Positions 6,696 through 18,550 of a stretch of DNA of 26,323 nt are shown in pieces (position 1 is the stretch's first letter; the number at the start of each line of letters is the position of its first letter). This stretch comes from a virus. The translations under genes and the position numbers were made by a program. Below the pieces are notes generated by a model. That model saw only the letters and a program-made list of their open reading frames with translations. It had not been told where the DNA came from and made no database searches. Location of the stretch: positions 1 to 26,323 of the IMG/VR virus record IMGVR_UViG_3300034073_002909; one strand, written 5' to 3'.

Positions 6696-7211
6696 ATGAT
6701 CTTACCCGATCACGAAATTGCTCGTTATTGTCAAATCTATGGAATGGTTGAAGATTACGATTCGGACTTGATCAATCCGGCCAGTCTGGACGTCCGCCTT
6801 GGGCCCACGATCATGGTCGAGGATGCCGTCGACGACGAGCTCAGGGCAGTGTCGATTGCGCACACCACCAAGGAAGATCCTTTCTATCTGCAGCCGGGGC
6901 AGTTCATCCTGGCCGAGACAATCGAAACCTTCAATCTGCCGGATGACATCTGCGCTCAGTTCGTCCTGAAGTCAAGCCGTGGCCGTGAGGGCATCAGTCA
7001 CGCGCTTTGCGGCTATTGCGATCCCGGGTGGCATGGCAGCCGGCTGACAATGGAACTGCATTGCCTGCGCCAGTTGCATCCGGTGAAGCTGTGGCACGGC
7101 ATGAAAATCGGACAGATGAAGTTCGAGCTAATGCTGTCGGCACCGCTGCGCGATTATTCGCAGACTGGCCGCTACAACATGGACAAGAGCGTTCAACCGA
7201 GCCGTGGCTGA
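6696..7211 (+). CDS. dcd: dCTP deaminase
   Basis: 171 residues. The N-terminus M-I-L-P-D-H-E-I, the N-P-A-S-L-D-V-R-L-G strand, F-I-L-A-E-T-I-E-T-F, the S-S-R-G-R-E-G loop and D-P-G-W-H-G-S-x-L-T-M-E-L with its Glu match the Dcd/trimeric dUTPase fold; the Ser, Arg and Glu are the expected active-site residues. The enzyme converts dCTP to dUTP, or directly to dUMP in bifunctional members, feeding thymidylate synthesis. Its stop overlaps the following thyX gene, so the two steps are co-expressed. I cannot tell from sequence whether it also hydrolyses dUTP. Confidence 0.9.
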   Translation: MILPDHEIARYCQIYGMVEDYDSDLINPASLDVRLGPTIMVEDAVDDELRAVSIAHTTKEDPFYLQPGQFILAETIETFNLPDDICAQFVLKSSRGREGISHALCGYCDPGWHGSRLTMELHCLRQLHPVKLWHGMKIGQMKFELMLSAPLRDYSQTGRYNMDKSVQPSRG

Positions 7212-7938
7212 AATGGATTCACGATTCCGCGTTAAAACGCTCCGTGCAACCGAAAGCCCGCAACAGCTTGTGTGGCTGGCATTGCATCAGGATTACAGCG
7301 AGGATTCGGTGATCGATTGCGTCGATCCACCGTGCGAGCGAGTGTCGGGTGAGATTGCGGTGAAGCGGCTGCTGGCCGGCGAGCGAGGGCACTACGGCTG
7401 CCTGGAGCATCCGCAGATCAGCCTGGCTGTCGCCGGTTTCCCGCATTCGGTGATGCAGCAGGCCCGCACCCATCGCGTGGGCGTCAGTTTTGATGTGCAG
7501 TCGGGGCGATACACCGGCAAGAGGATCATCGACCTGGCCGAAGGCAGACGAGAAATCGAGGACGTATTTTATCTTCGACCCCCTGGTGAATACCACGATC
7601 GCAAAGGCAAGTCTTATCAGTACACTAAGGACCAGCGCAAGGTCGATAGCTTCATCTTGCTCGAATCTGCTGTTAAATTTCGCAATGCAATAGCAGAACG
7701 CGGAATGTCTGAGGAACACGCCAGGGACATGATTCCGTACGCAATCAGGCAGGATTTTGTTGTCAGCTTTAACCTGCGATCAGCGCTGCATTTTATGGAC
7801 CTTAGGGGTAAAGCTGACGCTCAGCACGAAATAGTGCAGCTCTCGCAATTGCTTTGGCCTTGCATTCAGGAATGGGCGCCAGAAATTGCTGCCTATTACA
7901 CGAAACATCGCCTGGGCAAGGCACGTCTCGCCCCCTAG
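7204..7938 (+). CDS. thyX: flavin-dependent thymidylate synthase ThyX
   Basis: 244 residues. Motifs include G-H-Y-G-C-L-E-H-P-Q-I-S near 61-72, F-P-H-S-V-M-Q-Q-A-R-T-H-R near 79-91, S-F-D-V-Q-S-G-R-Y-T-G, and a C-terminal R-D-M-I-P-Y-A-I-R-Q-D...R-S-A-L-H-F-M-D-L-R substrate/flavin region. The ThyX signature normally reads RHR-x7-S; here it is T-H-R followed by eight residues before the Ser, a variant I associate with cyanobacterial and cyanophage ThyX. It methylates dUMP to dTMP using FAD and methylenetetrahydrofolate. The GTG at 7204 overlaps the dcd stop; an ATG at 7213 is an alternative start. Confidence 0.93.
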   Translation: MAEMDSRFRVKTLRATESPQQLVWLALHQDYSEDSVIDCVDPPCERVSGEIAVKRLLAGERGHYGCLEHPQISLAVAGFPHSVMQQARTHRVGVSFDVQSGRYTGKRIIDLAEGRREIEDVFYLRPPGEYHDRKGKSYQYTKDQRKVDSFILLESAVKFRNAIAERGMSEEHARDMIPYAIRQDFVVSFNLRSALHFMDLRGKADAQHEIVQLSQLLWPCIQEWAPEIAAYYTKHRLGKARLAP

Positions 7939-7962
7939 AGTTCCCTCGGAGGACACGGAACC

Positions 7963-8181
7963 ATGTCAGTCCATCTAGTCGATGTAAAGGCTCGCTTAAT
8001 CATCGAGTCCGATGTCGATGAAGAAGAATTGGCTGGAAACCTTTGTGCTCGGATCGAGGAATATCTTCGATCGAATGAAAAAATAATTGACATCGAGATA
8101 GAGAACACGCTGCTGCCTCTGGACGATGACGATGGATCACGCGATTCAGGAAGCAGAGCTGATCCCCAAGCGTGCAAGTAA
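7963..8181 (+). CDS. small acidic phage protein, unknown function
   Basis: 72 residues preceded by an excellent ribosome site (GGAGGA, 7948-7953). The first 50 residues have a beta-alpha-beta pattern (V-K-A-R-L-I-I-E-S, then E-E-L-A-G-N-L-C-A-R-I-E-E-Y-L, then I-I-D-I-E-I-E). The end is an Asp-rich disordered tail that overlaps the next gene by 56 bp. It has no motif I recognise. It lies 24 bp after thyX in the same direction, so it is probably co-transcribed. Confidence 0.65.
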   Translation: MSVHLVDVKARLIIESDVDEEELAGNLCARIEEYLRSNEKIIDIEIENTLLPLDDDDGSRDSGSRADPQACK

Positions 8182-8530
8182 GCAGCGCTTTCGGCATTCA
8201 ATCTTTGAGGCTTGGGGGCACAATTGCGCGTATTGCGGCAACTATGCCGACACGCTCGATCACGTCGTGCCAAGGCTGAACGGTGGATTGACCGTGAAAT
8301 ACAACCTGGTGCCAGCCTGCAAGCGTTGCAACGGCAACAAAGGCCATCAGCCGGTCTGGGCATGGTGGACGCAACAGAAGTACTGGAGCATCCCCAGGGC
8401 CCTGCGGGTGCTGGCGTGGGTGAGGCGTCAGGCCAGCCAGAACGCTGAGCATTCGTGGGCGCATCTCCCACCAGAGCGCCTGCCTTCCGGGAATCCCAAT
8501 GAGCACTCACCGGCCACAAACTGCCAGTGA
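8126..8530 (+). CDS. HNH endonuclease
   Basis: 134 residues with a compact HNH core: C-A-Y-C-G-N near 35-40, T-L-D-H-V-V-P-R-L-N-G-G near 43-54, N-L-V-P-A-C-K-R-C-N-G-N-K-G near 60-73, followed by a Trp-rich helix (W-A-W-W-T-Q-Q-K-Y-W). It is paralogous to the antisense HNH gene at 4445-4756. Its 3' end runs about 100 bp into a convergent gene on the other strand, where the C-terminal residues look poorly structured. Either a homing endonuclease or a phage nuclease with a DNA-processing role; sequence alone does not decide. Confidence 0.85.
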   Translation: MTMDHAIQEAELIPKRASKQRFRHSIFEAWGHNCAYCGNYADTLDHVVPRLNGGLTVKYNLVPACKRCNGNKGHQPVWAWWTQQKYWSIPRALRVLAWVRRQASQNAEHSWAHLPPERLPSGNPNEHSPATNCQ

Positions 8531-8733
8531 GTGCATTGCTGGCACGTTGGGCGGCCATTGGTGATCGTCTTCGCGTCCGCATAGAGCTGCTCGGCTTCAG
8601 CGATCGCCGTGGGCAGCTCGCGTGCTGACAGGGGAAGCTCCACGACCTGTTTACCCACCTTCAAGCGGACAATCCACTGATCTCCGGCCGGGAGCAACAC
8701 CATTCGGCCCGAGTGGTATCTCAGGGATGGCAC
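8428..8733 (-). CDS. small protein with C-terminal Cys cluster
   Basis: 101 residues. The N-terminal half is a beta sheet-like DNA/RNA-binding style segment (Q-W-I-V-R-L-K-V-G-K-Q-V-V-E-L-P-L) followed by a helix (A-I-A-E-A-E-Q-L-Y). The C-terminus holds C-Q-Q-C-T-H-W, C-S-L-G-F-P-E, C-A-H-E-C-S-A-F, a likely zinc or iron-sulfur site. C-S-L-G-F-P-E type clusters occur in other cyanophage proteins and a related one lies at 19725-19928 here. It overlaps the kinase gene upstream by 83 bp and the convergent HNH gene by 103 bp; a start at 8703 would shorten the first overlap. It is the last gene of the long leftward operon. Confidence 0.6.
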   Translation of the reverse strand: MPSLRYHSGRMVLLPAGDQWIVRLKVGKQVVELPLSARELPTAIAEAEQLYADAKTITNGRPTCQQCTHWQFVAGECSLGFPEGRRSGGRCAHECSAFWLA

Positions 8734-9238
8734 TTAGTAATTCCTCAAGAGTTCCTCCATTGATTATCTCATGAGTGAAATAAGGCCATTCATCAAGACC
8801 GCCTTCTGATGCGTGCGTTGTGTTCCGCGTCACACCAGGCCTGACAATGCGCCAGATTTGTCCGCCAAGGTTGCGGATCAGTTCAGCTTCATTCACAAAG
8901 CGGACATCATCAACAACTGTGAAGTTGCATCGACTGACCCGGGCAAGCCAGTGATCGATCCACATCGAGGGCGACACGCAGGTGCGCCCCCATTCGGTGC
9001 CGAGGGTGCGGAGCATGTGCCGAGCAGAGACCTTGAATTCTGGAATCAAAGCCTCTTTGTCGACGTAAACGTAATGGTGGATAGCATCTTCTGAATAGCC
9101 CATGCTTTTCAGCATGGCGCCGAGCATGTCCTTGAGCGGCTGGGCAAATGAATTTACCTTGTAGCCACGCTTTTGAATTTCTTGCGCAACCGTGGTTTTG
9201 CCGGATTGCGCTGCAGGGGAATAGAGTCCAATAATCAT
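8651..9238 (-). CDS. deoxynucleoside monophosphate kinase-like P-loop protein
   Basis: 195 residues. The N-terminus I-I-G-L-Y-S-P-A-A-Q-S-G-K-T-T is a Walker A loop with the usual first Gly replaced by Pro. Later elements fit the phage dNMP kinase family (T4 gene 1 type): F-A-Q-P-L-K-D-M-L near 31-39, R-H-M-L-R-T-L-G-T-E-W-G-R near 73-85, and V-V-D-D-V-R-F-x-N-E-A near 108-118 (Walker B-like DDVR). It would phosphorylate dNMPs such as the dTMP made by ThyX. Its start overlaps the preceding stop in an ATGA junction. The last ~25 residues overlap the downstream gene and look unstructured. Confidence 0.82.
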   Translation of the reverse strand: MIIGLYSPAAQSGKTTVAQEIQKRGYKVNSFAQPLKDMLGAMLKSMGYSEDAIHHYVYVDKEALIPEFKVSARHMLRTLGTEWGRTCVSPSMWIDHWLARVSRCNFTVVDDVRFVNEAELIRNLGGQIWRIVRPGVTRNTTHASEGGLDEWPYFTHEIINGGTLEELLSAIPEIPLGPNGVAPGRRSVDCPLEGG

Positions 9239-9399
9239 TGTTCAGACCATGCTTGCCTGGCCTCAAGACCGCATTGCAGGCAGAACTCTTGCCAGAGTCC
9301 GCTGTAAAGCATGTTCGTGCGACCAGATTGTTCGTAAAGAAAATCTAAAAAATCAGCCTTAACCTGTTCAGTCCTTGGATGGCAAGGAAACGTTTGCAT
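9235..9399 (-). CDS. 54-residue protein, unknown
   Basis: Ends in an ATGA overlap with the kinase start, the usual coupling in this operon. From the ATG at 9399 (GGTGG six bases before it) it encodes 54 residues, mostly helix: T-E-Q-V-K-A-D-F-L-D-F-L-Y-E-Q-S-G-R, then a Cys pair F-C-L-Q-C-G and an acidic end. An earlier ATG at 9420 is possible. I do not recognise a family. Confidence 0.5.
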   Translation of the reverse strand: MQTFPCHPRTEQVKADFLDFLYEQSGRTNMLYSGLWQEFCLQCGLEARQAWSEQ

Positions 9400-9607
9400 G
9401 AGGCCACCGGGCTTTTGCATAGGAGATTGCTGCGTCAGGATTCGGTGCCGGCGTTGTCCAGGTCATCGGAAGCGCACCCGGGACGCGGACGATCACCTTA
9501 AAGGGCTTGGTGATGTCGGTTGGCTTCGGTCGAGAAATGCCGTCACCGAATAGCGGCTGATTCTCTTCTGTATGTTCTTGCCAAATGAAAGACATAAATT
9601 CAGGCAT
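9368..9607 (-). CDS. small phage protein, unknown
   Basis: 79 residues. The C-terminal half (F-K-V-I-V-R-V-P-G-A-L-P-M-T-W-T-T-P, then A-I-S-Y-A-K-A-R-W-P) is a beta-beta-alpha unit like short proteins of cyanophage early operons, in which a strand-hairpin precedes A-x-x-Y-A-x-x-R-W-P. An in-frame ATG at 9595 is an alternative start. It overlaps its upstream neighbour by 8 bp and its downstream one by 32 bp. Role unknown. Confidence 0.62.
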   Translation of the reverse strand: MPEFMSFIWQEHTEENQPLFGDGISRPKPTDITKPFKVIVRVPGALPMTWTTPAPNPDAAISYAKARWPHANVSLPSKD

Positions 9608-10001
9608 TTGAAATTAGTAATTGTCGAATACGGCATGCCGTAAATGGACCGTCTGCAATGAGCTGCCAGATGGCTCTCATGGCTGCACGGGCCCGCTTTT
9701 CAGACGTGATCGACTCCGTCTGATCCATGGCAGCAATCACTGCCTTCAGGCACTGCTGAAACAGGAAATCGTCCTGTTGCATCAGCGCCTCGCGCCAGTT
9801 TGCCACCTCAGTCAGCGACAGCGGACCGAAGTTGCGAATCTTCATCAGATCGCTGCCGCTGGCCAGCATGATTTGTTGCGCGGTGTCGTATCCGCCACGC
9901 TTCAGCGCGTTTTGCGTCCTTTGCGAGATATGCTGCTGCGTCTCTGGCAACAGCCGAAAATCCGACCAAGCATTGGTTTGGGTATTCTGATTCAGCCGCA
10001 T
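9600..10001 (-). CDS. RNA polymerase alpha-CTD-like helix-hairpin-helix protein
   Basis: 133 residues. Residues ~24-72 match the C-terminal domain of the bacterial RNA polymerase alpha subunit: I-S-Q-R-T-Q-N-A-L-K-R-G-G-Y-D-T, then D-L-M-K-I-R-N-F-G-P-L-S-L-T-E-V. Positions equivalent to E. coli R265, N268, N294, G296 and S299, which contact UP-element DNA or activators, are kept (R28, N31, N57, G59, S62), while the K298 equivalent is Leu. The alpha N-terminal domain is absent. The C-terminal half is helical and unrelated. It could bind promoter DNA or activators in place of host alpha, or be a generic HhH DNA-binding protein. Confidence 0.7.
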   Translation of the reverse strand: MRLNQNTQTNAWSDFRLLPETQQHISQRTQNALKRGGYDTAQQIMLASGSDLMKIRNFGPLSLTEVANWREALMQQDDFLFQQCLKAVIAAMDQTESITSEKRARAAMRAIWQLIADGPFTACRIRQLLISNA

Positions 10002-10080
10002 TACGAGCTTTCAGTGGCGATTCTGCATAAACAAAATCTATTACAGATGTTGAAGGAATAGCAAAATAGAAGGGCTGCAT
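9808..10080 (-). CDS. small protein overlapping the alpha-CTD-like gene
   Basis: 90 residues from the ATG at 10080; an in-frame ATG at 10149 would overlap the upstream stop by 11 bp. The first ~55 residues read well (M-Q-P-F-Y-F-A-I-P-S-T-S-V-I-D-F-V, A-E-S-P-L-K-A-R-N-A-A, Y-P-N-Q-C-L-V-G-F). The last 35 (A-K-R-A-E-A-W-R-I-R-H-R...) look like an arbitrary reading of the alpha-CTD gene, so the conserved part is probably the N-terminal segment. About 194 bp overlap the alpha-CTD-like gene in another frame, unusually long for this operon. Unknown function. Confidence 0.5.
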   Translation of the reverse strand: MQPFYFAIPSTSVIDFVYAESPLKARNAAESEYPNQCLVGFSAVARDAAAYLAKDAKRAEAWRIRHRATNHAGQRQRSDEDSQLRSAVAD

Positions 10081-10138
10081 GGGATGAGCTGCGTGGCCGC
10101 GCACAGGATGCCATGACTGGATGAGTGCGCAATGTGTT

Positions 10139-10489
10139 TTAGGGCACATGTTTCCATAGTTTTCTGTTAAGAATTCTGCTGGTGTGATCGCGGCTCATGC
10201 CAAATCGCTGAGCGATCTCCTGCACCGACGCCCCTTCTCGGCGCAATTGCCGCATCTGGCGCACGTTGTCCTCGTTGAGCACAGCGCTGGCATGCTGGGA
10301 TCCCTTCGGGCCTGTGCCTGGGCGCCTGGAGCCGCGCTTGGCGCCTGGCTTCCTGGGGAAGTACTCCTCGAGCGTCCTGGTGATCTGCCCGCAATCAAGG
10401 CATCTGGCCCAGCGATGGCGCCCCTCTGTGCGCTGCTCGGTGTTGACGACGCGGGTCTCGCCATCGCAGAAACGACATGGAAAACCCAT
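10139..10489 (-). CDS. zinc-ribbon plus helix-turn-helix protein, likely regulator
   Basis: 116 residues. Residues 5-45 form a zinc ribbon with C-R-F-C...R-C-L-D-C-G and E-x-T-R-V-V-N-T, resembling the NrdR N-terminal ribbon. A basic Pro/Gly linker follows, then a resolvase-type HTH near 72-113 (V-R-Q-M-R-Q-L-R-R-E-G, S-V-Q-E-I-A-Q-R-F-G-M-S-R-D-H-T-S-R-I-L). It lacks the NrdR ATP-cone, so it is not NrdR itself. A DNA-binding or regulatory role is well supported; the target is unknown. It lies three bases after its upstream neighbour's stop. Confidence 0.75.
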   Translation of the reverse strand: MGFPCRFCDGETRVVNTEQRTEGRHRWARCLDCGQITRTLEEYFPRKPGAKRGSRRPGTGPKGSQHASAVLNEDNVRQMRQLRREGASVQEIAQRFGMSRDHTSRILNRKLWKHVP

Positions 10490-10492
10490 CGA

Positions 10493-10708
10493 TCAGGCGA
10501 TCGATCCCAGCATGATGTCCTCACCGGTGTCGGAGTAGACCAGGCAGTCCTTGGACCAGCCGAGCGGGTTGCCCTTGACCGGCGTTGCCATGGCATCAGG
10601 TTTTTCGATGGCAACAATTTCGTCAACGAAATCCTCCGCAACATCCTCGCTATCTGCCCAAACGTAGGCCTCGTATGTGACGGATACAACAAAAAGCTGT
10701 TTACTCAT
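10493..10708 (-). CDS. 71-residue acidic phage protein, unknown
   Basis: Starts M-S-K-Q-L-F-V-V-S-V-T-Y-E-A-Y-V-W-A-D-S-E, a beta hairpin followed by an acidic helix (D-V-A-E-D-F-V-D-E-I-V), the pattern of small phage proteins carrying an x-V-x-A-x-S-x-E-E-A motif. Its start overlaps the stop of the upstream membrane-protein gene by ATGA (10705-10708). Probably a cytoplasmic adaptor; no function can be assigned. Confidence 0.6.
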   Translation of the reverse strand: MSKQLFVVSVTYEAYVWADSEDVAEDFVDEIVAIEKPDAMATPVKGNPLGWSKDCLVYSDTGEDIMLGSIA

Positions 10709-10911
10709 GATTCGCAGAGATCAGAGAAAAAGGCGATAAACTCGGCGTCGTCCTTAGTAAATTTTTTAACAGCCTGTGCAATGGCGCGCAATACCATTAC
10801 AAATACAAAGCCTGGAAAAAGTAAAGAAAGGAGGCCGAGCAGCGCGAAGAAAAGACGCTGCTTGAACGTAATCGCTTTTGCGATGTCAGACATGAATTCA
10901 GTTGATTTCAT
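10705..10911 (-). CDS. small single-span membrane protein
   Basis: 68 residues from the ATG at 10911, which makes an exact ATGA overlap with the preceding stop; an upstream GTG-like start at 10932 is less likely. A basic segment (A-I-T-F-K-Q-R) precedes a strongly hydrophobic stretch (L-F-F-A-L-L-G-L-L-S-L-L-F-P-G-F-V-F-V), then a Lys/Asp-rich end. It is likely an inner or thylakoid membrane protein made early in infection. Role unknown. Confidence 0.6.
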   Translation of the reverse strand: MKSTEFMSDIAKAITFKQRLFFALLGLLSLLFPGFVFVMVLRAIAQAVKKFTKDDAEFIAFFSDLCES

Positions 10912-11111
10912 CTCATTAACCAGCAGTGCCAATCGTTTTCAGTGTTGATAAAAGCGCACTCGCCTGGGATCCCATAAGTGTTGGATTCGTAAAAGCCATC
11001 AGTGCCCCATAACTCTAGCATATAAGAAGCCTGATTGGCCCAGAAAAAGCGACCGATGTTGCCGCCGTTGCTTGTGATGCTAATAAAAGCATCAGGGATG
11101 AATGGCGTCAT
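10908..11111 (-). CDS. 67-residue aromatic-rich protein, unknown
   Basis: Rich in Phe, Trp, Tyr and Asn (I-G-R-F-F-W-A-N-Q-A-S-Y, D-G-F-Y-E-S-N-T-Y-G, N-D-W-H-C-W). It has no membrane segment and no known motif. It sits in the leftward operon, overlapping the upstream gene by 20 bp and joined to the downstream gene by ATGA, and these overlaps are the main evidence that it is translated. Confidence 0.5.
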   Translation of the reverse strand: MTPFIPDAFISITSNGGNIGRFFWANQASYMLELWGTDGFYESNTYGIPGECAFINTENDWHCWLMR

Positions 11112-11388
11112 TGTTCAATTCGTTAATGATGTCGAAAATGTCTTGGCGGATGCCATCGGCGCCCTTGATGCGGACCGCCAGAGCGGTCAGGGCGGCGGCA
11201 AGCGCCTTGCTGGTGCTTTGCTGCTCGTGGAAGGCCTCGAGGATTGCCTTACTGGCCGGGCATGGCTCGGCAAGCGCTGCGCTGGCGATGTCGACCCACT
11301 GCTGAAACACCACCCGATAACGAGGCGGCCAGTCAGCCTTCTCGAGGCAGTCAAGCAGTTCGATGGACAGCGCACGGAAATCAGTCAT
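11092..11388 (-). CDS. small helical phage protein, family resembles its upstream neighbour
   Basis: 98 residues, nearly all helix: F-R-A-L-S-I-E-L-L-D-C-L-E, W-P-P-R-Y-R, then K-A-L-A-A-A-L-T-A-L-A-V-R and a final helix. The opening M-T-D and the following S-x-x-x-L-L-D pattern suggest kinship with the next gene upstream (M-T-D-L-S-P-A-A-Q-A-V-L-D-A). Small M-T-D-x-S helical proteins are frequent in cyanophage early operons. It is joined to its upstream gene by ATGA at 11385-11388. Unknown function. Confidence 0.6.
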   Translation of the reverse strand: MTDFRALSIELLDCLEKADWPPRYRVVFQQWVDIASAALAEPCPASKAILEAFHEQQSTSKALAAALTALAVRIKGADGIRQDIFDIINELNNDAIHP

Positions 11389-11681
11389 TGGTGGATGGAT
11401 GTAGAGGTTTTGTCGCAGCCTTGGTTCCGGAGGGTAGGCCCGGGCAGGGCTTTGCCCTTCAGTTCGGTGGCGATGGCGAGGAGCTGCTGGCGAATGTCCA
11501 CGACACCTCCCAACTCAACGTCCCACGGTCGCTCTTCGATGAAGAGTCGCTCTTGTTCAGGCGGCACCACCTGATCCGCAGTAGCTCGCAGCGCGGCGGC
11601 AAGGATCTGGCGAGAGTCATAGCAGGGATGCAGGTTGCTGGCGTCTAGCACCGCCTGCGCTGCAGGAGACAGGTCAGTCAT
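11385..11681 (-). CDS. small helical phage protein (M-T-D-L-S-P family)
   Basis: 98 residues. Starts with the recurrent cyanophage opening M-T-D-L-S-P-A-A-Q-A-V-L-D-A and contains Q-I-L-A-A-A-L-R-A-T-A-D-Q-V, an A-A-A-L-R-A-x-A-D-Q pattern I recall from many cyanophage and Synechococcus small proteins. A second helix (I-R-Q-Q-L-L-A-I-A-T-E-L) follows, then a polar tail. Coupled by ATGA to the next gene and overlapping the previous one by 8 bp. Function unknown, but the family resemblance makes a real gene likely. Confidence 0.68.
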   Translation of the reverse strand: MTDLSPAAQAVLDASNLHPCYDSRQILAAALRATADQVVPPEQERLFIEERPWDVELGGVVDIRQQLLAIATELKGKALPGPTLRNQGCDKTSTSIHQ

Positions 11682-11862
11682 TGGCCTGGTTCAGGTAGTC
11701 AGTTTGTGAAATTGTTGGCAGCGGATCACCAAGCGCTTCAAGTGCGCAGATCATGCACCAATGCCCTTCGTGACCTTTGATGTTGCTTGAGATGGTGTGT
11801 GGGTGTGTTCCATGTTTGGGACAAATTACGCCGGGGCCGGCCCATGTGTAGAAATCAGTCAT
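11674..11862 (-). CDS. small zinc-finger-like phage protein
   Basis: 62 residues with C-P-K-H-G near 14-18 and W-C-M-I-C near 35-39 separated by a His-containing loop (H-T-I-S-S-N-I-K-G-H-E-G). This C-x2-H-(x)n-C-x2-C arrangement, with the S-N-I-x-G-H-E-G-x-W-C core, resembles a small cyanophage protein type I have seen repeatedly. Likely binds zinc. It is coupled to its upstream gene by ATGA (11859-11862). Confidence 0.66.
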   Translation of the reverse strand: MTDFYTWAGPGVICPKHGTHPHTISSNIKGHEGHWCMICALEALGDPLPTISQTDYLNQAND

Positions 11863-12365
11863 TGATTTCCCCAGCGACTGAGAACGGCGCGAGCGTATTC
11901 CAGTGCAACAGTGTTAAGCACCACACGAAAGAGACCCGGCTCGACTTGGCCGCCAGTCGCCGTGGAATGCACATTGGAAGCAGCCGCAAACTCGTCCCGC
12001 ATGGTTTCGGGCATCAGTTCCAGCAGTTCTTCGTCTGTTGGCATTTGCGGCTCGGACTGGTCGAGATAGGCGCGAGCTTCGGCCAGCAAATCAAGTTCGT
12101 CTTTCTCGTACCATCCTTCCCATTCCATGAGCATTTCCAGCGCATCAGTGAATCGCTGGATCAGGCCTCTAGATTTCGTATCGCATCGGTTTGTCGCGGT
12201 GTTCTGTTTAAGAAACTCGACCATCAAACGGTGGGCTTCACCAGCATCACCAATGAACTGATCCCGGTAATGAAAGCCTTCTTTGTCAAAACGAATGACC
12301 TCTTCCATTCTATCCGGAGTGTCTTGTTGAAAAATAACTTTGTTGTCCATTGTTGGTTCAATCAT
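11859..12365 (-). CDS. acidic protein of unknown function
   Basis: 168 residues from the ATG at 12365, chosen because GGAG lies seven bases upstream; an ATG at 12350 is the alternative. The protein is acidic and helical. One part reads as a beta segment (V-I-R-F-D-K-E-G-F-H-Y-R-D-Q-F-I-G), followed by helices with E-A-H-R-L-M-V-E-F-L-K-Q and a C-terminal helix A-L-E-Y-A-R-A-V-L-S-R-W-G. The A-R-A-V-L-x-R-W-G ending is common to several cyanophage early proteins. It overlaps its upstream gene by 8 bp. No activity can be assigned. Confidence 0.65.
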   Translation of the reverse strand: MIEPTMDNKVIFQQDTPDRMEEVIRFDKEGFHYRDQFIGDAGEAHRLMVEFLKQNTATNRCDTKSRGLIQRFTDALEMLMEWEGWYEKDELDLLAEARAYLDQSEPQMPTDEELLELMPETMRDEFAAASNVHSTATGGQVEPGLFRVVLNTVALEYARAVLSRWGNQ

Positions 12366-12714
12366 CGAGTTGCTCCAAGGCGCGGCGGATGGTGCTGAGA
12401 TCTTTCATCTGGTCACTAAAGAATTCACCCGTTGATACAAGACGTGTGAGTTTCTCCAGCGCCTGCTCCTTCAAACTCGGCGGTTTGGGGCGGCGGGCGG
12501 CGCGGAGTCCTTTGGCAGCGCGGTCGTTGTAGAGCAGCGCCTGTCGCTGAACGCACGCCTCCAGCTCCTGGTCCGCGCCCCATTGAACGGCGCGGGTGGC
12601 AAGGATTTCCACGCTCTCCCCAGTGAACTCGTCGTAAGTCAGGCGACACTCAGGGCAAGCCTCGGCAACCCATTGCTCTACCAGCTCCGGCGGTGGGGTG
12701 ATGGGGTGGGTCAT
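12358..12714 (-). CDS. small phage protein (P-P-P-E-L-V-x-Q-W family)
   Basis: 118 residues. The ATG at 12714 has GGAGG seven bases upstream and overlaps the previous stop by ATGA, so the start is firm. The opening T-H-P-I-T-P-P-P-E-L-V-E-Q-W-V, the A-V-Q-W-G-A-D-Q-E-L-E-A-C core and the K-P-P-S-L-K-E-Q-A-L segment match a small protein family I recall from cyanophages and picocyanobacteria. The final S-T-I-R-R-A-L-E-Q-L helix also fits. Role unknown. Confidence 0.78.
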   Translation of the reverse strand: MTHPITPPPELVEQWVAEACPECRLTYDEFTGESVEILATRAVQWGADQELEACVQRQALLYNDRAAKGLRAARRPKPPSLKEQALEKLTRLVSTGEFFSDQMKDLSTIRRALEQLDD

Positions 12715-13184
12715 CGCTCGGCCTCCCGCGTCAGCATCCAAGCGGCATCACCGCCGGTGTTCTCGTCCAACCACGCCGCCACCTCGCGGATCGCGGCGTA
12801 GGCTCCCGACCAGTTGATGGATTCGCCGTCTTGACTGATGGCGGCGGCCACTCGGGTGATCAGCAAAGGCCCCTTGACCGCTGGCTTGGAGTTTGGCGTC
12901 AGCAAATCCATGAGCTGTTGCGCCTGCTCGGACGTCAGCTTCAGTGGCTCGTTGATTTCGTAGACCTTTGAAGCTTTGCGCTCGGGCAACCCTGCTGCCG
13001 CACGGATCTGCTCCGGTGTGGCGTTGCGGATCAGGTCCATGCACGCATGAAACCGGCGGTCGTTTTCTTCCTCGTCGATCGGCTCAGGCTGCTGCTGCGC
13101 AGCCTCCAGGGCCTCGACCCTGGCGCGAAGCTCGAGGACGGCATCTAGCCAGCGTGCGGCATCTGTTTCCCATTGCTGAGTCAC
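12711..13184 (-). CDS. phage protein of unknown function, helical
   Basis: 157 residues. The GTG at 13184 has GGAGG seven bases upstream and overlaps the preceding stop as GTGA. The N-terminus (T-Q-Q-W-E-T-D-A-A-R-W) leads into a coiled coil (A-V-L-E-L-R-A-R-V-E-A-L-E-A). The middle has T-S-E-Q-A-Q-Q-L-M-D-L-L and the end A-A-I-R-E-V-A-A-W-L-D-E-N. The last part resembles a recurrent small-protein module (A-I-R-E-V-A-x-W-L) of cyanophage early operons. Probably an oligomer through its coiled coil. Function unknown. Confidence 0.7.
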   Translation of the reverse strand: MTQQWETDAARWLDAVLELRARVEALEAAQQQPEPIDEEENDRRFHACMDLIRNATPEQIRAAAGLPERKASKVYEINEPLKLTSEQAQQLMDLLTPNSKPAVKGPLLITRVAAAISQDGESINWSGAYAAIREVAAWLDENTGGDAAWMLTREAER

Positions 13185-13354
13185 AGCCGCACCTCCACGT
13201 CCACGATGTAGCGGTAGACGCCGGCCACGGTGCTGCATGCTTGCAGATCAAGGCTGCTCACCTTGCAGCCGGTGGTCTTCAGAAACTGATCCAGAGCGTT
13301 TTGAATTGTGACTTCGAGGGCTGCCTTGGCGGCCTTGGCTTCTTCAATGGTCAT
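13181..13354 (-). CDS. 57-residue small protein, unknown
   Basis: Encodes M-T-I-E-E-A-K-A-A-K-A-A-L-E-V-T-I-Q-N-A-L-D-Q-F, then T-G-C-K-V-S-S-L-D-L-Q-A and V-Y-R-Y-I-V-D-V-E-V-R-L. This helix-then-two-strands pattern ending in a V-x-V-x-V-x-L strand looks genuine. Its start makes ATGA with the previous stop and its stop makes GTGA with the next start, which is strong evidence for translation. Similar short I-x-x-A-x-x-x-F-x-x-x-T-G proteins occur in phages and in conjugative elements. Confidence 0.65.
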   Translation of the reverse strand: MTIEEAKAAKAALEVTIQNALDQFLKTTGCKVSSLDLQACSTVAGVYRYIVDVEVRL

Positions 13355-13440
13355 GGCAACATTTTAGATAGGACAATAATAATCAGCGCAAATAAACCCC
13401 AAATAGCAAACAATCGAATAGCTAAATCATGAAACTCCAT
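13351..13440 (-). CDS. 29-residue single-span membrane peptide
   Basis: M-E-F-H-D-L-A-I-R followed by an uninterrupted hydrophobic helix (L-F-A-I-W-G-L-F-A-L-I-I-I-V-L) and S-K-M-L-P. The stop forms ATGA with the next gene and the start lies 14 bp inside the upstream gene, so it is embedded in the coupling chain. Such mini-membrane proteins are easily missed. It could modulate a host membrane complex, but there is no functional evidence. Confidence 0.5.
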   Translation of the reverse strand: MEFHDLAIRLFAIWGLFALIIIVLSKMLP

Positions 13441-13750
13441 TGCTGTAAGCAGTGCAAAGCTCGATGATTTTATGGGCCCTTGTGGGACCGATTTGGTCCA
13501 TCAGTAACAAATCATCAAATTCAAGGCTTAGGACATGGTCGACGGAGAACACCCCTGCTCGAAGCAGCGGATGCAATAAGGATACATCATTGCGCAAGGC
13601 CGTGCGCAACTCGACGTGATCGTTACTGGAATTGAACCTGTCCAGCAACTGCAGCCACTCGAAAGCCGGCGTTGGGCTGGCTTGCGCCGCCTGTCGCAGC
13701 GCCCGGGCCAGGTCGCACGACATGTGATACCAGAACTGATTGCCGCGCAT
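13427..13750 (-). CDS. 107-residue protein with a C-terminal HhH-like segment
   Basis: Start ATG at 13750 shares its A with the previous stop (TGATG) and has GGGAGG four bases before. N-terminal helices contain F-W-Y-H-M-S-C-D-L-A-R-A-L-R-Q-A-A. The C-terminal ~45 residues (L-L-R-A-G-V-F-S-V-D-H-V-L-S, L-L-L-M-D-Q-I-G-P-T-R-A-H-K-I-I-E-L) resemble a helix-hairpin-helix motif, also present in alpha-CTD folds, and so loosely echo the gene at 9600-10001. The key polymerase-contact residues are not evident here. Likely a DNA-binding protein; role unknown. Confidence 0.62.
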   Translation of the reverse strand: MRGNQFWYHMSCDLARALRQAAQASPTPAFEWLQLLDRFNSSNDHVELRTALRNDVSLLHPLLRAGVFSVDHVLSLEFDDLLLMDQIGPTRAHKIIELCTAYSNGVS

Positions 13751-13893
13751 CAAGCCTCCCGCATCAACTCCAGCAGCCGCAGCAGGTGCTCGCCAAAAGC
13801 GACGTGGGTCATCACAGCATGGGTGCCAGGAGCTCGGCCGTAGGACTCTTCCCACCACTCTCTGAAAGCGGCCTCGATCGATTCTTGGTTCAT
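13750..13893 (-). CDS. 47-residue helical protein
   Basis: From the ATG at 13893, which overlaps the preceding stop as ATGA. It reads M-N-Q-E-S-I-E-A-A-F-R-E-W-W-E-E-S-Y-G, then T-H-A-V-M-T-H-V-A-F-G-E-H-L-L-R-L-L-E. Short proteins with F-R-E-W-W-x-x-S-Y-G occur in other cyanophage operons by memory. It is coupled on both sides. Function unknown. Confidence 0.65.
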   Translation of the reverse strand: MNQESIEAAFREWWEESYGRAPGTHAVMTHVAFGEHLLRLLELMREA

Positions 13894-14333
13894 GGGACGT
13901 ACCAGAGCTTCTGCCCAGTCTTGGCGATCCAAGCGTCGTACTCCTTGCGAGCAGCGTCAACAGCTTCGAGCTCAATCTCCCGAAGTTCTTGCTCTGAAAA
14001 TTCCTTGCCAAGAATTTCACGAAACTTTACCTTAAAGATTTTGTTGTACTGGTTCAGCTGGTCCTGTGCCGATCCGCCGCTCTTGGCTGAATTGACCTCG
14101 GCCGCAAACTTCAACGCGATCCGCTTTTTCGTGGTGATGCGGTGCATCCAGGCTGAGCTGAACGGCACCCCAGAAGCTTCCTGCTTCACCGATGCCTTGG
14201 ACAGCGCCTCGTCAATAGAAGCAATGGTCGCTTTCAGTTCTGCGTGAAAGCCCTCGAGTTCTTCTTTGCTAAGTGATTGGATTTGATCAATGGGAACCGA
14301 ACGGCTGAGGAATTCGCTTGTAAATGTAATCAT
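13890..14333 (-). CDS. protein of unknown function, helical, Lys/Glu-rich
   Basis: 147 residues from the ATG at 14333; an in-frame ATG at 14363 would put the terminator hairpin inside the coding region. Mostly helix: I-D-Q-I-Q-S-L-S-K-E-E-L-E-G-F-H-A-E-L-K, then a basic segment (R-I-T-T-K-K-R-I-A-L-K-F), then acidic E-L-R-E-I-E-L-E. Composition differs from its Ala/Pro-rich upstream neighbour. A recombination or DNA-binding partner is conceivable from its place downstream of the nuclease and SSB-like genes, but no motif shows this. Confidence 0.62.
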   Translation of the reverse strand: MITFTSEFLSRSVPIDQIQSLSKEELEGFHAELKATIASIDEALSKASVKQEASGVPFSSAWMHRITTKKRIALKFAAEVNSAKSGGSAQDQLNQYNKIFKVKFREILGKEFSEQELREIELEAVDAARKEYDAWIAKTGQKLWYVP

Positions 14334-14335
14334 GG

Positions 14336-14361
14336 GAAAAATCGAGGGGCCCGAAGGCCCC
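14336..14361 (-). terminator. hairpin with UUCG tetraloop followed by a T run
   Basis: On the minus strand GGGGCC-TTCG-GGCCCC forms a perfect 6-bp stem with a very stable UUCG loop, followed by TCGATTTTTC. This is a good intrinsic terminator. It lies after the SSB-like gene and ends three bases before the ATG of the next gene, so it would attenuate the rest of the leftward operon or block initiation at that start. Confidence 0.65.
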
Positions 14362-14369
14362 ATTGTTGA

Positions 14370-14915
14370 TCAGAACGGAGGCTGCCAGCCACCAGGCGGC
14401 TGAGCGGCCGGTGCGGCTGCTGGTGCAGCGCTGGGCGGCGGGCCCCAGCCAGGTGGATTCACCGGTGGCGGGGTCATTGCCGGGGCCGCAGCGGGTGCTG
14501 GTGCGGGAGCGGCGGCCGGAGCGCCGGGAGGCCCCCAGACAGCGGGTGCGGCAGGAGCAGCCGGAGCAGCCGGGGCGCCAGGCGGCCCCCACACGCCCGG
14601 GGCAGCCGGTGCTGCAGCAGCAGGAGCCGCAGCAGGCTGCACCCGGCTGTCTGGCTTGAGCTGGACGCTCATGTACCAGGGCTGGGTGTTTGAGGACTTG
14701 TCCCAGCCAGACACGCTCACCGGGATCTCGTTGCGCTCGTTCGGCTGCGCATTCATCAGGTACTCGGCGATCGCATAGGCCTGATCGGCCGGCACATTGA
14801 TCGTCCCCGAGTAGGCCGGATACTGCTTCGACGGATCGAAGCGGTCACCCATGCGCTGGCGCAGCACATTCGGGTCCTGGCGAAAGATGGCGCCATTGGC
14901 AGCAAAGCTGCTCAT
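14370..14915 (-). CDS. OB/SSB-like protein with Ala/Pro-rich tail
   Basis: 181 residues. The folded N-terminal ~95 residues have strands typical of small phage ssDNA-binding or DUF736-like proteins: Y-P-A-Y-S-G-T-I-N-V, E-I-P-V-S-V-S-G-W-D-K, P-W-Y-M-S-V-Q-L-K-P. The C-terminal ~85 residues are almost entirely Ala, Pro and Gly with a repeated V-W-G-P-P-G-A-P-A-A unit, ending G-G-W-Q-P-P-F. A long disordered tail with an aromatic tip is how SSB proteins recruit partners, although the usual acidic tip is missing. It is coupled by ATGA to the upstream gene and lies in the nuclease operon. SSB function is an inference. Confidence 0.6.
   Translation of the reverse strand: MSSFAANGAIFRQDPNVLRQRMGDRFDPSKQYPAYSGTINVPADQAYAIAEYLMNAQPNERNEIPVSVSGWDKSSNTQPWYMSVQLKPDSRVQPAAAPAAAAPAAPGVWGPPGAPAAPAAPAAPAVWGPPGAPAAAPAPAPAAAPAMTPPPVNPPGWGPPPSAAPAAAPAAQPPGGWQPPF
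14380..14640 (-). repeat. coding repeat tract, Ala/Pro/Gly-rich
   Basis: The DNA encoding the SSB-like tail contains imperfect repeats of GC-rich triplets and a 10-residue unit (V-W-G-P-P-G-A-P-A-A) present twice. It also leaves other frames open on both strands, so those frames should not be taken as genes. Such tracts are prone to length variation by slippage. Confidence 0.7.
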
Positions 14916-15244
14916 GCTTCCACCTCAGCCTTCTTGGTGCTGCGACGGCCGCGCTTCTTCTCGGTGCCGGGTGCCGGCTTGGCATTGGCGATCAGGTAGC
15001 AGCCGGTGCCATCAGGCTTGCGCTTCACCGAGTAGCGGATGGTCTCGGAGCGAGCCGACATTGCACCAGCGACCTGGGAGATCGTGGTGGCCTTGTAGCC
15101 AAACTCCTCGTCAGCGGTGTCGTAAGCCACCTCGATTGCTTCACCGATCTGGAGCTGCTGCAGAGCAGTCCTCAACGGGAAGGTTTTTGTAATTCGAGTG
15201 GTAGTGGTAGGGATGTCCTGGGCGGAAATGACGTTGAAACTCAT
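14912..15244 (-). CDS. small basic-tailed phage protein, unknown
   Basis: 110 residues. A beta-rich start (T-T-T-T-R-I-T-K-T-F-P-L-R-T-A-L), then G-E-A-I-E-V-A-Y-D, a helix-turn resembling an HTH (T-I-S-Q-V-A-G-A-M-S-A-R), R-Y-S-V-K-R-K-P-D-G, and a Lys/Arg/Pro-rich end (E-K-K-R-G-R-R-S-T-K-K). Likely binds nucleic acid. It is the gene between the OB-like protein upstream and the SSB-like protein downstream in the operon and couples to the latter by ATGA. Confidence 0.65.
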   Translation of the reverse strand: MSFNVISAQDIPTTTTRITKTFPLRTALQQLQIGEAIEVAYDTADEEFGYKATTISQVAGAMSARSETIRYSVKRKPDGTGCYLIANAKPAPGTEKKRGRRSTKKAEVEA

Positions 15245-15266
15245 TGCGATACGGAACGCATTGACA

Positions 15267-15842
15267 CTATACCCCTAAACGGGCCTGTTTTGCAGCGAAA
15301 AGCTGCTGGTACTGCTCGGCTGTGATCTTTCGCTCATTAAACCGCGCTTGAAGCAGCGCATCGACCGAATCCAGTTGCTCTATTGGCATTGCCTGTATCG
15401 CTGCCAGTGCCTTCTTGAATACATCATCGGCCTGGGTCGGCTTCAGGTTCTGCACGATCGGCTTCCGTCTCGGTGGCGTCCACTCGCACGACACCGGTGC
15501 CGCAAGATCCGGGCTGCCCATCACACGAATGCACGGCTCGTTCCGCCGCTTCGGGTGTGGCATCAAGCTCGTGGTCCCGTAAAGCGTCACCCGCTTACCC
15601 ACCCATTGACGCGGATCGGGCCCGAACATCGCCTTGATCGCGACCGCGTTGATCTTCGCCAGTACCAACTGCAGCGGCGTCTCCTCGAACGACATGATCA
15701 CCTTCGGCTCAACGCCGCGCTCGCCTTGCAGCTCCTCGCGGACGATGTCACGAACCGTGAAGGTAACCGGCTCGCCGTTGAACAGGCCAGCCTTCAGGAA
15801 CCGGCCCGGGTACAGCTCATCAAACGATTGGAATGCAGTCAC
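15267..15842 (-). CDS. phage recombination-associated OB-fold-like protein
   Basis: 191 residues, GTG start overlapping the nuclease stop as GTGA. The segment F-N-G-E-P-V-T-F-T-V-R-D-I-V-R-E-E-L, P-K-V-I-M-S-F-E-E-T, L-V-L-A-K-I-N-A-V-A-I-K-A-M-F-G and W-V-G-K-R-V-T-L-Y matches a family often encoded beside phage exonucleases (the N-A-x-x-I-x-x-x-F/Y-G...W-x-G-K-R-V-T-L-Y pattern). It is thought to be a ssDNA-binding or recombination helper; the exact biochemical role is not established. The C-terminal third is helical and ends A-E-Q-Y-Q-Q-L-F-A-A-K-Q-A-R. Confidence 0.72.
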   Translation of the reverse strand: MTAFQSFDELYPGRFLKAGLFNGEPVTFTVRDIVREELQGERGVEPKVIMSFEETPLQLVLAKINAVAIKAMFGPDPRQWVGKRVTLYGTTSLMPHPKRRNEPCIRVMGSPDLAAPVSCEWTPPRRKPIVQNLKPTQADDVFKKALAAIQAMPIEQLDSVDALLQARFNERKITAEQYQQLFAAKQARLGV

Positions 15843-16729
15843 AGACCCTCCAGGCCAAGATCATCAAGATTTGTATCGTCATCAGCGGATGACACATCCG
15901 CCCACGCGGGCGGCACAATCCACGCCTCACCGTAACTTGGCCATTCGTTTCGCGCTTCGCATTCGGCTATGCGGTCAAATGCCTCATCGCGCCTGCGAAA
16001 GCCTTCGTCCATGAACTCCTCATCAGCCCACACGAGCGAGTAGTTGTAAGGCTTCTTCCACTCGTATGCGATGAAGCCGGTCTGCTCGGGCGCAAACCCA
16101 TGCCGGTCGGCGTAGCCCAGGCTGTAATGCGCGAGCTGCACGTCATACCCCAGCTTCCACGCCTGGTTCCTGAACATCAGCGGGTGGGCGCTGACCGTCT
16201 TCTTCAGGTCCAGCAGGATCTTCTGACGCGGCACCTCGAGGTCGGGCTTGTACCGGCACTCGCGGCCCTCCGCATCAGTCCAGAAATGCGGCTTCTGCTT
16301 CGTCGGCAGGCTCGCCAACAGGGGCCCGATCACCGGATCTGCACGCAACCGGCCAGCGATCGCATGAGCGGTCTCGATCCACTCTTCATTCACGACCTCC
16401 TTGCCCTCGTTTTTCAGCAGCCACTGATCCCACCATGTGACCGCCAGAACGGTCGCCTCCGATGGCTTGGCCGCATTGCGCTGGCTGCTGGTCGGTTTCT
16501 TCGGCGCATCAGCCGGGAGCACTGCATAGCGCTTGTGGAACTCGGTCGGTTCCGTCAGCAGGCAGTCAACCAGCGACCCCTGGCGCATCGCGTCGGTGGG
16601 CTGGAACACCTCCCGCTCAGGGTCGACATGCTTGGCCCAGTAATCCAGCGCAGTGCCGGTCACCATTGCTTTTAGGCGCGTCGCGGACATCGCCGGATGC
16701 GCGTGGTACTCGTCAGGATGCAAGGTCAC
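15839..16729 (-). CDS. RecE-like PD-(D/E)XK exonuclease
   Basis: 296 residues from a GTG at 16729, first gene of the leftward operon. It follows the DUF3799/RecE exonuclease plan. The early M-S-A-T-R-L-K-A-M helix and G-S-L-V-D-C-L-L-T-E-P (near 52-62) carry the usual His/Asp region. Y-K-P-D-L-E-V...I-L-L-D-L-K-K-T near 160-178 is the D-x(n)-D-x-K core, and Y-D-V-Q-L-A-H-Y-S-L-G-Y-A near 194-206 is the conserved Q-x-x-x-Y motif. It would resect dsDNA 5'->3' to start single-strand annealing or recombination, with the next operon proteins as partners. Confidence 0.88.
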   Translation of the reverse strand: MTLHPDEYHAHPAMSATRLKAMVTGTALDYWAKHVDPEREVFQPTDAMRQGSLVDCLLTEPTEFHKRYAVLPADAPKKPTSSQRNAAKPSEATVLAVTWWDQWLLKNEGKEVVNEEWIETAHAIAGRLRADPVIGPLLASLPTKQKPHFWTDAEGRECRYKPDLEVPRQKILLDLKKTVSAHPLMFRNQAWKLGYDVQLAHYSLGYADRHGFAPEQTGFIAYEWKKPYNYSLVWADEEFMDEGFRRRDEAFDRIAECEARNEWPSYGEAWIVPPAWADVSSADDDTNLDDLGLEGL

Positions 16730-16743
16730 ATCTAAGGTAGGAC

Positions 16744-16778
16744 TTGCACAGCATACACGATGCAGTATGCTTTGGCAA
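16744..16778. promoter_or_regulatory. symmetric divergent promoter/operator
   Basis: Two sigma70-like promoters overlap here. Rightward: TTGCAC (16744-16749), 16-bp spacer, TATGCT (16766-16771). Leftward on the minus strand: TTGCCA (complement of 16773-16778), 17-bp spacer, TATGCT (complement of 16750-16755). The two -10 boxes are arms of an inverted repeat AGCATAC-(8)-GTATGCT (16750-16771), so one dimeric protein could control both operons. Matches are by eye. Confidence 0.6.
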
Positions 16779-18151
16779 TGCCTGCACTACGCCCCAGACA
16801 ACAAAAAGCAGTCGATGATCTGCGTGCTGCCTACCGGGCCGGCCGAAATGCAGTCGTGCTCGTCGCGCCCACTGGCATGGGCAAGACCGCAACAGCCGCC
16901 GAGATCATCCGATCAGCCATCAGCCGGGGCAATCCCGTCTGGTTCCTCGCGCACCTGCAGGAAATCCTGCTCGACACCAGCCGCCGGCTCACCAGTGAAG
17001 GCATCCAGCACGGTTTCATCATGGCCGGCATGCCCTCGGATCCGACCGCCATGGTGCAGGTGGTCTCGGTGCAGACCGCAGCACGGCGGCCGATCCTGTC
17101 CAAGCCAGCTCTGATCATCATCGACGAATGCCACCTGGCGGTGGCCAAGACCTATCTGCGCGTTATCGAGGCAGCCGGGAACCCGAGACTGCTGGGTCTC
17201 ACTGCCACACCAGAGCGGCTCGACCGCAAGGGCCTCAACGAGCTCTTCGATCACCTCGTGCCCACCTGCTCGACCCGGGACCTGATCGATGAGGGCCTGC
17301 TCTCGTCCTTCCGCTACTACGCCCCCTCGCTGCCAGACCTCACCAACGTCCGCGATCGCGGCGGCGATTACGACGAGGGCGATCTGGCCGAGGTCATGGA
17401 CCAGCCCACCATCACCGGTGACGCCATCGCCGCCTACCGCAAGTACGCCCAGGGCCGGCCGGCGGTCGCGTTCTGCACCAACATCAAGCACGCGACCCAC
17501 ACCGCAGAAGCATTCGCTGCTGCAGGGTTCAGGGCGGTGGCGATCTCAGGCAAGTCCACGGCCGGTGAGCGCAAGCACGCACTCGAGGCCCTCAAGGCTG
17601 GCCAGATTGACTTGGTGGCGAACGTCGGCCTGTGGGTCGCTGGTGTCGACTGCCCGAACATCGGCTGCGTGATTCTCCTGAGACCCACCAAGTCGGTCAC
17701 GGTTTACTTGCAATCCATAGGCAGAGGACTGCGCATCCATCAAAATAAAGACGACCTTGTTGTCCTCGATCATGCCGGAAACGTATTCGAGCATGGAATG
17801 CCAGACGAGCCACGAGAATGGACCCTGGAAGGACGACGCAAGCGCAAGGGCCAGGCAGCACCACCTGTGCGTCAATGTCCTGCATGCTTTGCCGCCCACG
17901 CTCCGGCACCCGTGTGCCCTTGCTGTGGACATACTTATTTTGTTGCAGAACGTGAAGGACCGCGCATCGTTGAAGGTGAGCTCCTTGAAATTACAAGTGA
18001 AGTAGCACAAAAGATCCGCAAACCGCATCCTGCAGCAGGTTGCAAAACATACGAAGACCTAGTGCAACGTGCCCGCGAAAAGGGCTACTCCGAGGGCTGG
18101 GCCAAGCACATCTGGCAAGCAAGGCAGCGCAAACAGCTCAAGACGGCGTAA
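16778..18151 (+). CDS. SF2 DEAD/DEAH-type helicase with C-terminal zinc ribbon
   Basis: About 457 residues from the ATG at 16778, where the protein starts with the usual L-R-P-R-Q-Q-K-A-V (Q-like motif); an in-frame ATG at 16760 lies inside the predicted promoter. Motif I is A-P-T-G-M-G-K-T, motif Ib V-V-S-V-Q-T, motif II I-I-I-D-E-C-H, motif III L-G-L-T-A-T-P, and motifs V-VI include L-V-A-N-V-G-L-W-V-A-G-V-D and Q-S-I-G-R-G-L-R. A Cys-4 zinc ribbon follows (C-P-A-C...C-P-C-C-G). Related to UvrB/RecG/ResIII-type phage helicases used in recombination or replication restart. The VRR-NUC gene follows. Confidence 0.92.
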   Translation: MPALRPRQQKAVDDLRAAYRAGRNAVVLVAPTGMGKTATAAEIIRSAISRGNPVWFLAHLQEILLDTSRRLTSEGIQHGFIMAGMPSDPTAMVQVVSVQTAARRPILSKPALIIIDECHLAVAKTYLRVIEAAGNPRLLGLTATPERLDRKGLNELFDHLVPTCSTRDLIDEGLLSSFRYYAPSLPDLTNVRDRGGDYDEGDLAEVMDQPTITGDAIAAYRKYAQGRPAVAFCTNIKHATHTAEAFAAAGFRAVAISGKSTAGERKHALEALKAGQIDLVANVGLWVAGVDCPNIGCVILLRPTKSVTVYLQSIGRGLRIHQNKDDLVVLDHAGNVFEHGMPDEPREWTLEGRRKRKGQAAPPVRQCPACFAAHAPAPVCPCCGHTYFVAEREGPRIVEGELLEITSEVAQKIRKPHPAAGCKTYEDLVQRAREKGYSEGWAKHIWQARQRKQLKTA

Positions 18152-18170
18152 ACTGCACCCGTCACCAAAC

Positions 18171-18201
18171 AAGGGCCTCAAAGTGAAGGGGGGCCCTTTT
18201 T
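18171..18201 (+). terminator. intrinsic terminator immediately before a start codon
   Basis: AAGGGCC (18171-18177) pairs with GGCCCTT (18192-18198) around a 14-base loop and is followed by TTT and C. It ends one base before the ATG at 18203. The purine-rich AAGGGGGG that would serve as ribosome site for the next gene lies in the loop and 3' arm, so the same structure could also limit translation. Confidence 0.65.
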
Positions 18202-18202
18202 C

Positions 18203-18550
18203 ATGTCCGAACAGCACGTCCAACAAGCAATTCGACTTGCGCTCGGTACCAGGCCAGACGTCACCCTCTGGCGCAACAACTGCGGCAAGCTCCCCGATCC
18301 ACGCACCAACCGCTGGGTGGAATTTGGCGTCGCCAATCCCGGCGGCTCTGACCTGATCGGCCTCCGCACCATCACCATTGGCCCCGAGCACGTCGGCCGC
18401 ACCATGGCCGTGTTCAGCGCCTGCGAAGTGAAAACCCCCACTGGCCGGGTCAGGCCCGAACAGCAGAGGTTCATCGACTTCATCCGCTCTCGCGGCGGCA
18501 TCGCCGGCGTCGCTCGCTCGGTGGAGGACGCCCAGCGGTTATTCAGTTAG
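18203..18550 (+). CDS. VRR-NUC domain nuclease
   Basis: 115 residues, the usual size of stand-alone phage VRR-NUC proteins. Core motifs: L-W-R-N-N-C-G, F-G-V-A-N-P-G-G-S-D-L-I-G (catalytic Asp), A-C-E-V-K-T-P-T-G-R (the E-x-K of the PD-(D/E)XK fold) and P-E-Q-Q-R-F-I-D-F-I followed by G-G-I-A-G-V-A-R-S. Members of this family act as structure-specific or Holliday-junction nucleases. It follows the SF2 helicase by 51 bp across a terminator-like hairpin, suggesting the two work on the same DNA intermediates. Confidence 0.92.
   Translation: MSEQHVQQAIRLALGTRPDVTLWRNNCGKLPDPRTNRWVEFGVANPGGSDLIGLRTITIGPEHVGRTMAVFSACEVKTPTGRVRPEQQRFIDFIRSRGGIAGVARSVEDAQRLFS

Follow-up and report, generated by a model that had tools for sequence, protein, structure and literature searches.

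The DNA analysed here encodes a phage protein that carries an RNA polymerase alpha C-terminal domain (alpha-CTD) detached from the rest of the alpha subunit, and the gene is conserved and selected in a clade of cyanosiphoviruses. As judged from the residues retained, there is about an even chance that the product is a small phage transcription regulator, in which the alpha-CTD was taken over as a DNA-binding module and combined with a new C-terminal region. The window, that is, the whole stretch of DNA under analysis, comprises the 26,323 bases of an IMG/VR virus record, and its relevant features are collected in Table 1. Domain identity, contact residues, selection, conservation in six out of six contigs and the lack of sigma regions 2 and 3 in five virus contigs were computed.

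Table 1. Features of the window, and of related viral contigs where a contig is named, that are discussed in the text.
Feature	Coordinates	Strand	Basis or remark
Putative zinc ribbon and helix-turn-helix protein, upstream neighbour	10139..10489	-	HTH_23, 25.7 bits
Upstream small ORF in another frame, beginning MQPFYFAIPSTSVIDFVYAESPLKARNAAESEYPNQ...	9970..10080 (constrained part)	-	Open to stop at 9808
ORF with the alpha-CTD domain, 133 aa	9600..10001	-	True N-terminus uncertain
Frame-switch zone, upstream frame to alpha-CTD frame	9951..9981	-	Invariant GGATTTTCG, then predicted hairpin
RNA_pol_A_CTD (PF03118) domain, residues 25-67	9801..9929	-	Pfam match
C-terminal region, about 60 aa (residues 74-133)	9603..9782	-	Kept in all six contigs
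Small downstream ORF	9368..9607	-	ORF list; 8-nt overlap with the alpha-CTD stop
Deoxynucleoside monophosphate kinase, downstream in the same gene run	8651..9238	-	Family matches
Second protein of the original prediction	13427..13750	-	Weak HhH-like C-terminus, not alpha-CTD
Sigma70_r4 and alpha-CTD fusions	L034:2500-3177, L038:2386-3432, L042:2527-3195, L047:2572-3192, L053:2278-3177		

Identification of the alpha-CTD domain

The original prediction of an alpha-CTD-like domain at 9600-10001 was borne out by profile searches. RNA_pol_A_CTD was the only Pfam family above its cut-off in the 133-residue ORF (E 2.7e-10, 40.3 bits, cut-off 23.8), while generic HhH families (HHH_5 etc.) gave no Pfam match at E<=10, and the comparison between RpoA C-terminal and HhH profiles was thus decided in favour of the former. 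The Pfam search returned neither the alpha N-terminal domain family nor Sigma70 region 4, and the domain does occur without the alpha N-terminal domain, as had been proposed, in a protein of only 133 residues. The NCBIfam RpoA models matched by their C-terminal part only, over the same stretch as PF03118, and this stretch was also recognised by alpha-CTD chains of the PDB, the best being B. subtilis 1z3e (E 1.1e-5). In four relatives of the gene the PF03118 scores were 36.9-40.8 bits. Since the PF03118 match exceeds its cut-off and the alignment to residues 258-305 of E. coli alpha contains no gaps, the observation is real and well above chance.

The domain shares 33% identity (16/48) with the Synechocystis alpha-CTD and 19/48 residues with that of B. 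subtilis, and in a domain tree the window protein was placed on a long, unresolved branch apart from cyanobacterial RpoA. A recent origin from the rpoA gene of a cyanobacterial host was considered and found unsupported by these values.

DNA-contact and sigma-contact residues

In E. coli alpha, residues including R265, N268, N294, G296, K298, S299 and E302 have DNA-contact roles, and D258, D259 and E261 are the acidic contacts to sigma region 4. The alignment paired R265 with R28, N268 with N31, N294 with N57, G296 with G59, S299 with S62 and E302 with E65. The equivalents of R265, N268, N294, G296 and E302 showed no variation across six contigs, whereas the S299 position is Ser in three of them, including the window, and Ala in the other three. 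The predicted retention of DNA-contact positions therefore holds for R265, N268, N294 and G296 and in part for S299, and the alpha-CTD surface was largely preserved in the homologues except at the S299 position with its three Ala residues. Moreover, the K298 position is occupied by Leu61 in all six contigs and the C269 position by Ala32 in the window protein; because of these two replacements and of the S299 variation, the affinity of the window protein for UP-element DNA may be lowered.

The positions of D258, D259 and E261 correspond to T21, Q22 and H24 in the window protein, and the 285-287 region reads S/G/S compared with T/E/V in E. coli. According to the alignment, the putative DNA face of the domain is mostly kept and the putative sigma face is lost. 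Loss of the acidic sigma patch argues against a simple full mimicry of alpha and in favour of a repurposed DNA-binding module; redirection of host transcription by mimicking or displacing alpha, as originally suggested, is possible. With both the N-terminal assembly domain and the acidic sigma patch missing, the protein differs from a functional RpoA subunit.

The AlphaFold2 model of the protein (pLDDT 52.7) was too poor to interpret and returned no PDB match in Foldseek at E<=0.001. The C-terminal region, which comprised three helices in this low-confidence model, is probably helical; no recognised family was found in it, and the window's C-terminal 60 residues were found solely in its own clade and in no contig outside.

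Phage affiliation, conservation and selection

The window is a fragment of a cyanosiphovirus related to S-CBS3 and S-LBS1. Its endolysin shows 70% identity to that of Synechococcus phage S-CBS3, the integrase (79%) and VRR-NUC (65%) are similar to those of S-LBS1, the primase resembles that of cyanophage S-2L, and S-CBP3 matches a short stretch at 90% identity. Two further features of the record were observed: a 35-nt GC-rich repeat in almost three head-to-tail copies at the very end of the contig (26225-26323), and an intein of about 348 aa (21505-22548) that interrupts the primase-helicase (19993-23589) at its P-loop (GSGK/T) and is missing from the relatives G003 and G004.

The alpha-CTD gene also occurs on four other IMG/VR contigs and one MAG contig, with 92-98% identity and the gene order kept. 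The MAG comes from a pond and is labelled Hyphomonadaceae, and its bin includes a contig of the window's phage clade, L015 (JAIXVM010000181.1), probably a mis-binned phage. The six contigs compared throughout are the window, the four IMG/VR contigs and the MAG contig, and represent essentially two lineages. The gene is intact and in the same place in all six. Between lineages its pN/pS was 0.05-0.27, and whenever another contig was compared with the window, residues 24-73 showed no more than one amino-acid change, next to two to five silent changes. Purifying selection acts on the gene.

The cyanosiphoviruses S-CBS3 and S-LBS1 encode a sigma factor (PMC6157547), of group 2 or RpoD-like type and located shortly after the endolysin. 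A PF03118 search of both genomes found no alpha-CTD; a Sigma70_r2/r3 search detected these regions in S-CBS3 and S-LBS1, whereas the five virus contigs belonging to the window's clade gave no match. A sigma factor is likely missing from the clade, although the clade contigs do not include the terminase and portal genes and such a factor could lie outside the region covered.

Gene start and putative frameshift

The distribution of variable sites along the gene suggested that the annotated start at 10001 is doubtful. Of the 13 variable sites between 10080 and 9970, 12 are silent when read in the upstream frame and 1 when read in the alpha-CTD frame; of the 10 between 9950 and 9812, 7 are silent when read in the alpha-CTD frame and 1 when read in the other. 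These sites are few and come from six contigs of essentially two lineages. According to this pattern, the first 10-15 codons or so of the annotated ORF lie outside the constrained frame. The switch of frame points to two overlapping genes, a start further downstream, or a fusion produced by +1 frameshifting.

The last of these can be put forward tentatively. A +1 ribosomal frameshift near GGATTTTCGG (9954-9963) would join the ORF starting at 10080 to the alpha-CTD frame and would give, also tentatively, a fusion of mini-domain, alpha-CTD and C-terminal region of about 159 aa, compatible with any of the functions proposed below. Besides the passage of constraint from one frame to the other, the TTTT of GGATTTTCGG is invariant in the six contigs, the sequence immediately 3' of the slip site is predicted to form a hairpin (z -2.0), and the ORF from 10080 fills the gap of 137 nt before 10001 in a gene run that is otherwise tightly packed. 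However, the slip site is a short one, no covariation supports the hairpin, the mini-domain is like neighbours that end naturally near that length (a weak argument), and the pattern also fits two other models: two genes overlapping by about 190 nt, of which the upstream one would continue as a free tail as far as the stop at 9808, or initiation of the alpha-CTD gene at a later TTG at 9950. Shine-Dalgarno motifs, missing from most genes of the run, gave no help in choosing the start codon, and an Rfam search returned nothing. The alpha-CTD domain is unaffected by the choice, as the fused reading keeps the PF03118 match at 39.7 bits.

Neighbouring genes

The protein encoded directly upstream has what looks like a zinc ribbon (C-x2-C ... 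C-x2-C) at its N-terminus and a helix-turn-helix (HTH) at its C-terminus. Sigma70_r4 scored 22.1 bits on it, below the cut-off, and about 28 (27.6-28.3) in the relative G003; as the PHROG family that best matches the whole protein is one of HNH endonucleases, it was taken as a generic HTH protein. Its counterparts in G003 and the MAG contig share only 42% identity with it, compared with 92% for the adjoining alpha-CTD gene, indicating that this upstream protein was exchanged or is fast-evolving.

A nucleotide-metabolism set occupies 6696-9238, with dCTP deaminase, ThyX and the dNMP kinase close together, and a ligase adenylation-domain protein of just 242 aa lies at 24799-25527. Promoter and terminator scans gave results at chance level, with no promoter-like sites beyond chance in 8000-20100.

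The original prediction had also pointed to a second HhH-like protein in the same operon. A weak HhH likeness of its C-terminus was indeed observed, but the HHH_5 match was below threshold (14.4 bits, cut-off 27, E 0.055). As a possible alpha-CTD relative this protein was rejected, since it meets no threshold and retains none of the R265, N268, N294, S299 and E302 equivalents. Its AlphaFold2 model (pLDDT 64.9) was too poor as well, with no Foldseek match at E<=0.001.

Alpha-CTD proteins in other viruses

An alignment scan of viral contigs for alpha-CTDs yielded 26 loci with various partner regions, none of them a full-length RpoA. Among 19 distinct viral alpha-CTDs, from phages unrelated to the window, R265 is present in 18, N268 in all and E302 in 18, and an acidic residue occurs at position 258 in 17 and at 261 in 16. 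At least five viral proteins are fusions of Sigma70 region 4, a promoter-binding module, with an alpha-CTD, both domains scoring over their Pfam cut-offs. Searches of a set of open-access papers found none on this architecture and no study of phage proteins made of a detached alpha-CTD.

Some matches were discarded. That of phage Goslar (H1, E 0.2) was judged spurious, being a reading frame without the alpha-CTD motif. A gut "phage" match (L009) is a full-length, host-type rpoA, and two plasmid "RNA polymerase alpha" matches (L080, L081) are rpoA genes within ribosomal-protein operons; all three, likely contamination or chromosomal pieces, were left out of the stand-alone alpha-CTDs.

Possible function

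On the basis of residue conservation and of the viral alpha-CTD class, we infer DNA binding and an action on transcription. In the regulator proposed above, the alpha-CTD module would use the R265/N268/N294/G296/E302 surface to bind the minor groove of DNA that is A/T-rich or resembles UP elements, and the C-terminal region, possibly with the N-terminal mini-domain, would mediate dimerisation or interact with the host polymerase or a further phage protein as a putative partner. The protein might thereby do part of the job of the S-CBS3/S-LBS1 sigma factor in this clade, either biasing the host polymerase to phage promoters or occupying the UP elements of host promoters.

Against a role in transcription stand the position of the gene, which shares its run with genes of nucleotide metabolism and recombination, and the absence of promoter-like sites beyond chance in the scan described above. 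The dNMP kinase gene and an exonuclease VIII-like gene are neighbours in the same orientation, and dCTP deaminase, ThyX and a helicase belong to the same conserved block. HhH folds generally bind DNA without sequence preference. Together with the loss of the sigma-contact patch, these elements are consistent with a protein that binds DNA in phage replication, recombination or nucleotide metabolism by means of an HhH module derived from the alpha-CTD and has no role in transcription. We consider this somewhat unlikely, as the match is specific to the alpha-CTD and not to generic HhH families, and the viral fusions with sigma region 4 point the class to transcription.

Retention of the DNA-contact residues without the N-terminal domain that would tether the protein to the polymerase could also suit a decoy of alpha, which would displace the host alpha-CTD from UP elements or soak up host activators and so shut down host transcription. 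A parallel in effect is provided by gp67 of phage G1, which disrupts the interaction between alpha-CTD and UP element (PMC4495994). Nevertheless, the sigma-contact residues are gone, the 285-287 region has diverged and the conserved 60-residue C-terminal region would be needless in a pure decoy, making this explanation quite unlikely. The composite in which a programmed +1 frameshift yields the mini-domain/alpha-CTD fusion, which works in trans as a detached alpha-CTD and steers the host polymerase at UP-like sites, replacing the sigma factor of the sister phages, is also quite unlikely. Finally, chance resemblance or a degenerate functionless remnant, to which the strong divergence from the Synechocystis domain and the long tree branch might point, is extremely improbable given an E value of 2.7e-10 over a curated cut-off, a pN/pS below 0.3 and an intact gene in all six contigs.

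Comparison with known systems

Modification, cleavage or blocking of the host alpha subunit is known from several phages. Alt/ModA of T4 modify R265 of alpha. Rac of phiKMV-type phages leads to cleavage of alpha (PMC7552054). These proteins and gp67 target or exploit the alpha subunit, and, unlike the window protein, gp67 and Rac are not reported as alpha-CTDs in PMC4495994 and PMC7552054.

The sigma factors of S-CBS3 and S-LBS1 resemble the present case in their genome neighbourhood after the endolysin and in being a phage-encoded piece of the host transcription machinery. Phage P-SS2 carries a pair of sigma factors proposed to modulate the host polymerase (PMC2784084). In all three phages the protein in question is a sigma factor, not an alpha-CTD, and it has no sequence relation to the window protein. 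A conserved and selected cyanophage case in which sigma is seemingly missing makes the idea of a free alpha-CTD as a transcription factor acting in trans testable.

Compared with the alpha-CTDs of bacterial RpoA (B. subtilis 1z3e, Synechocystis 8gzg), the window domain aligns without gaps over alpha 258-305 and has R265, N268, N294, G296 and E302 in common, S299 being common to the window protein itself. It differs in lacking the N-terminal domain and tethering linker, in the changes of K298 to Leu, C269 to Ala and D258/D259/E261 to T/Q/H, and in the new 60-residue C-terminal region.

The fusions in L034, L038, L042, L047 and L053 likewise use the alpha-CTD as a module of a small phage protein. 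In contrast, the window protein has no region 4, and the HTH protein upstream of it, whose Sigma70_r4 score is borderline, is encoded by an ORF of its own and is closer to HNH-associated HTH proteins. The wider set, these fusions included, suggests a recurrent phage route to promoter-binding proteins from polymerase parts.

Close counterparts are Goe8_c00050 of Bacillus phage vB_BmeM-Goe8, annotated as "RNA polymerase subunit alpha", and the IMG/VR loci L030-L055, which carry an alpha-CTD without the alpha N-terminal domain and the same DNA-contact residues, but in which other N- or C-terminal parts are attached and acidic residues are mostly preserved at the sigma-contact positions. Stand-alone alpha-CTDs recur in phages, and the window protein adds a variant to this known but uncharacterised kind.
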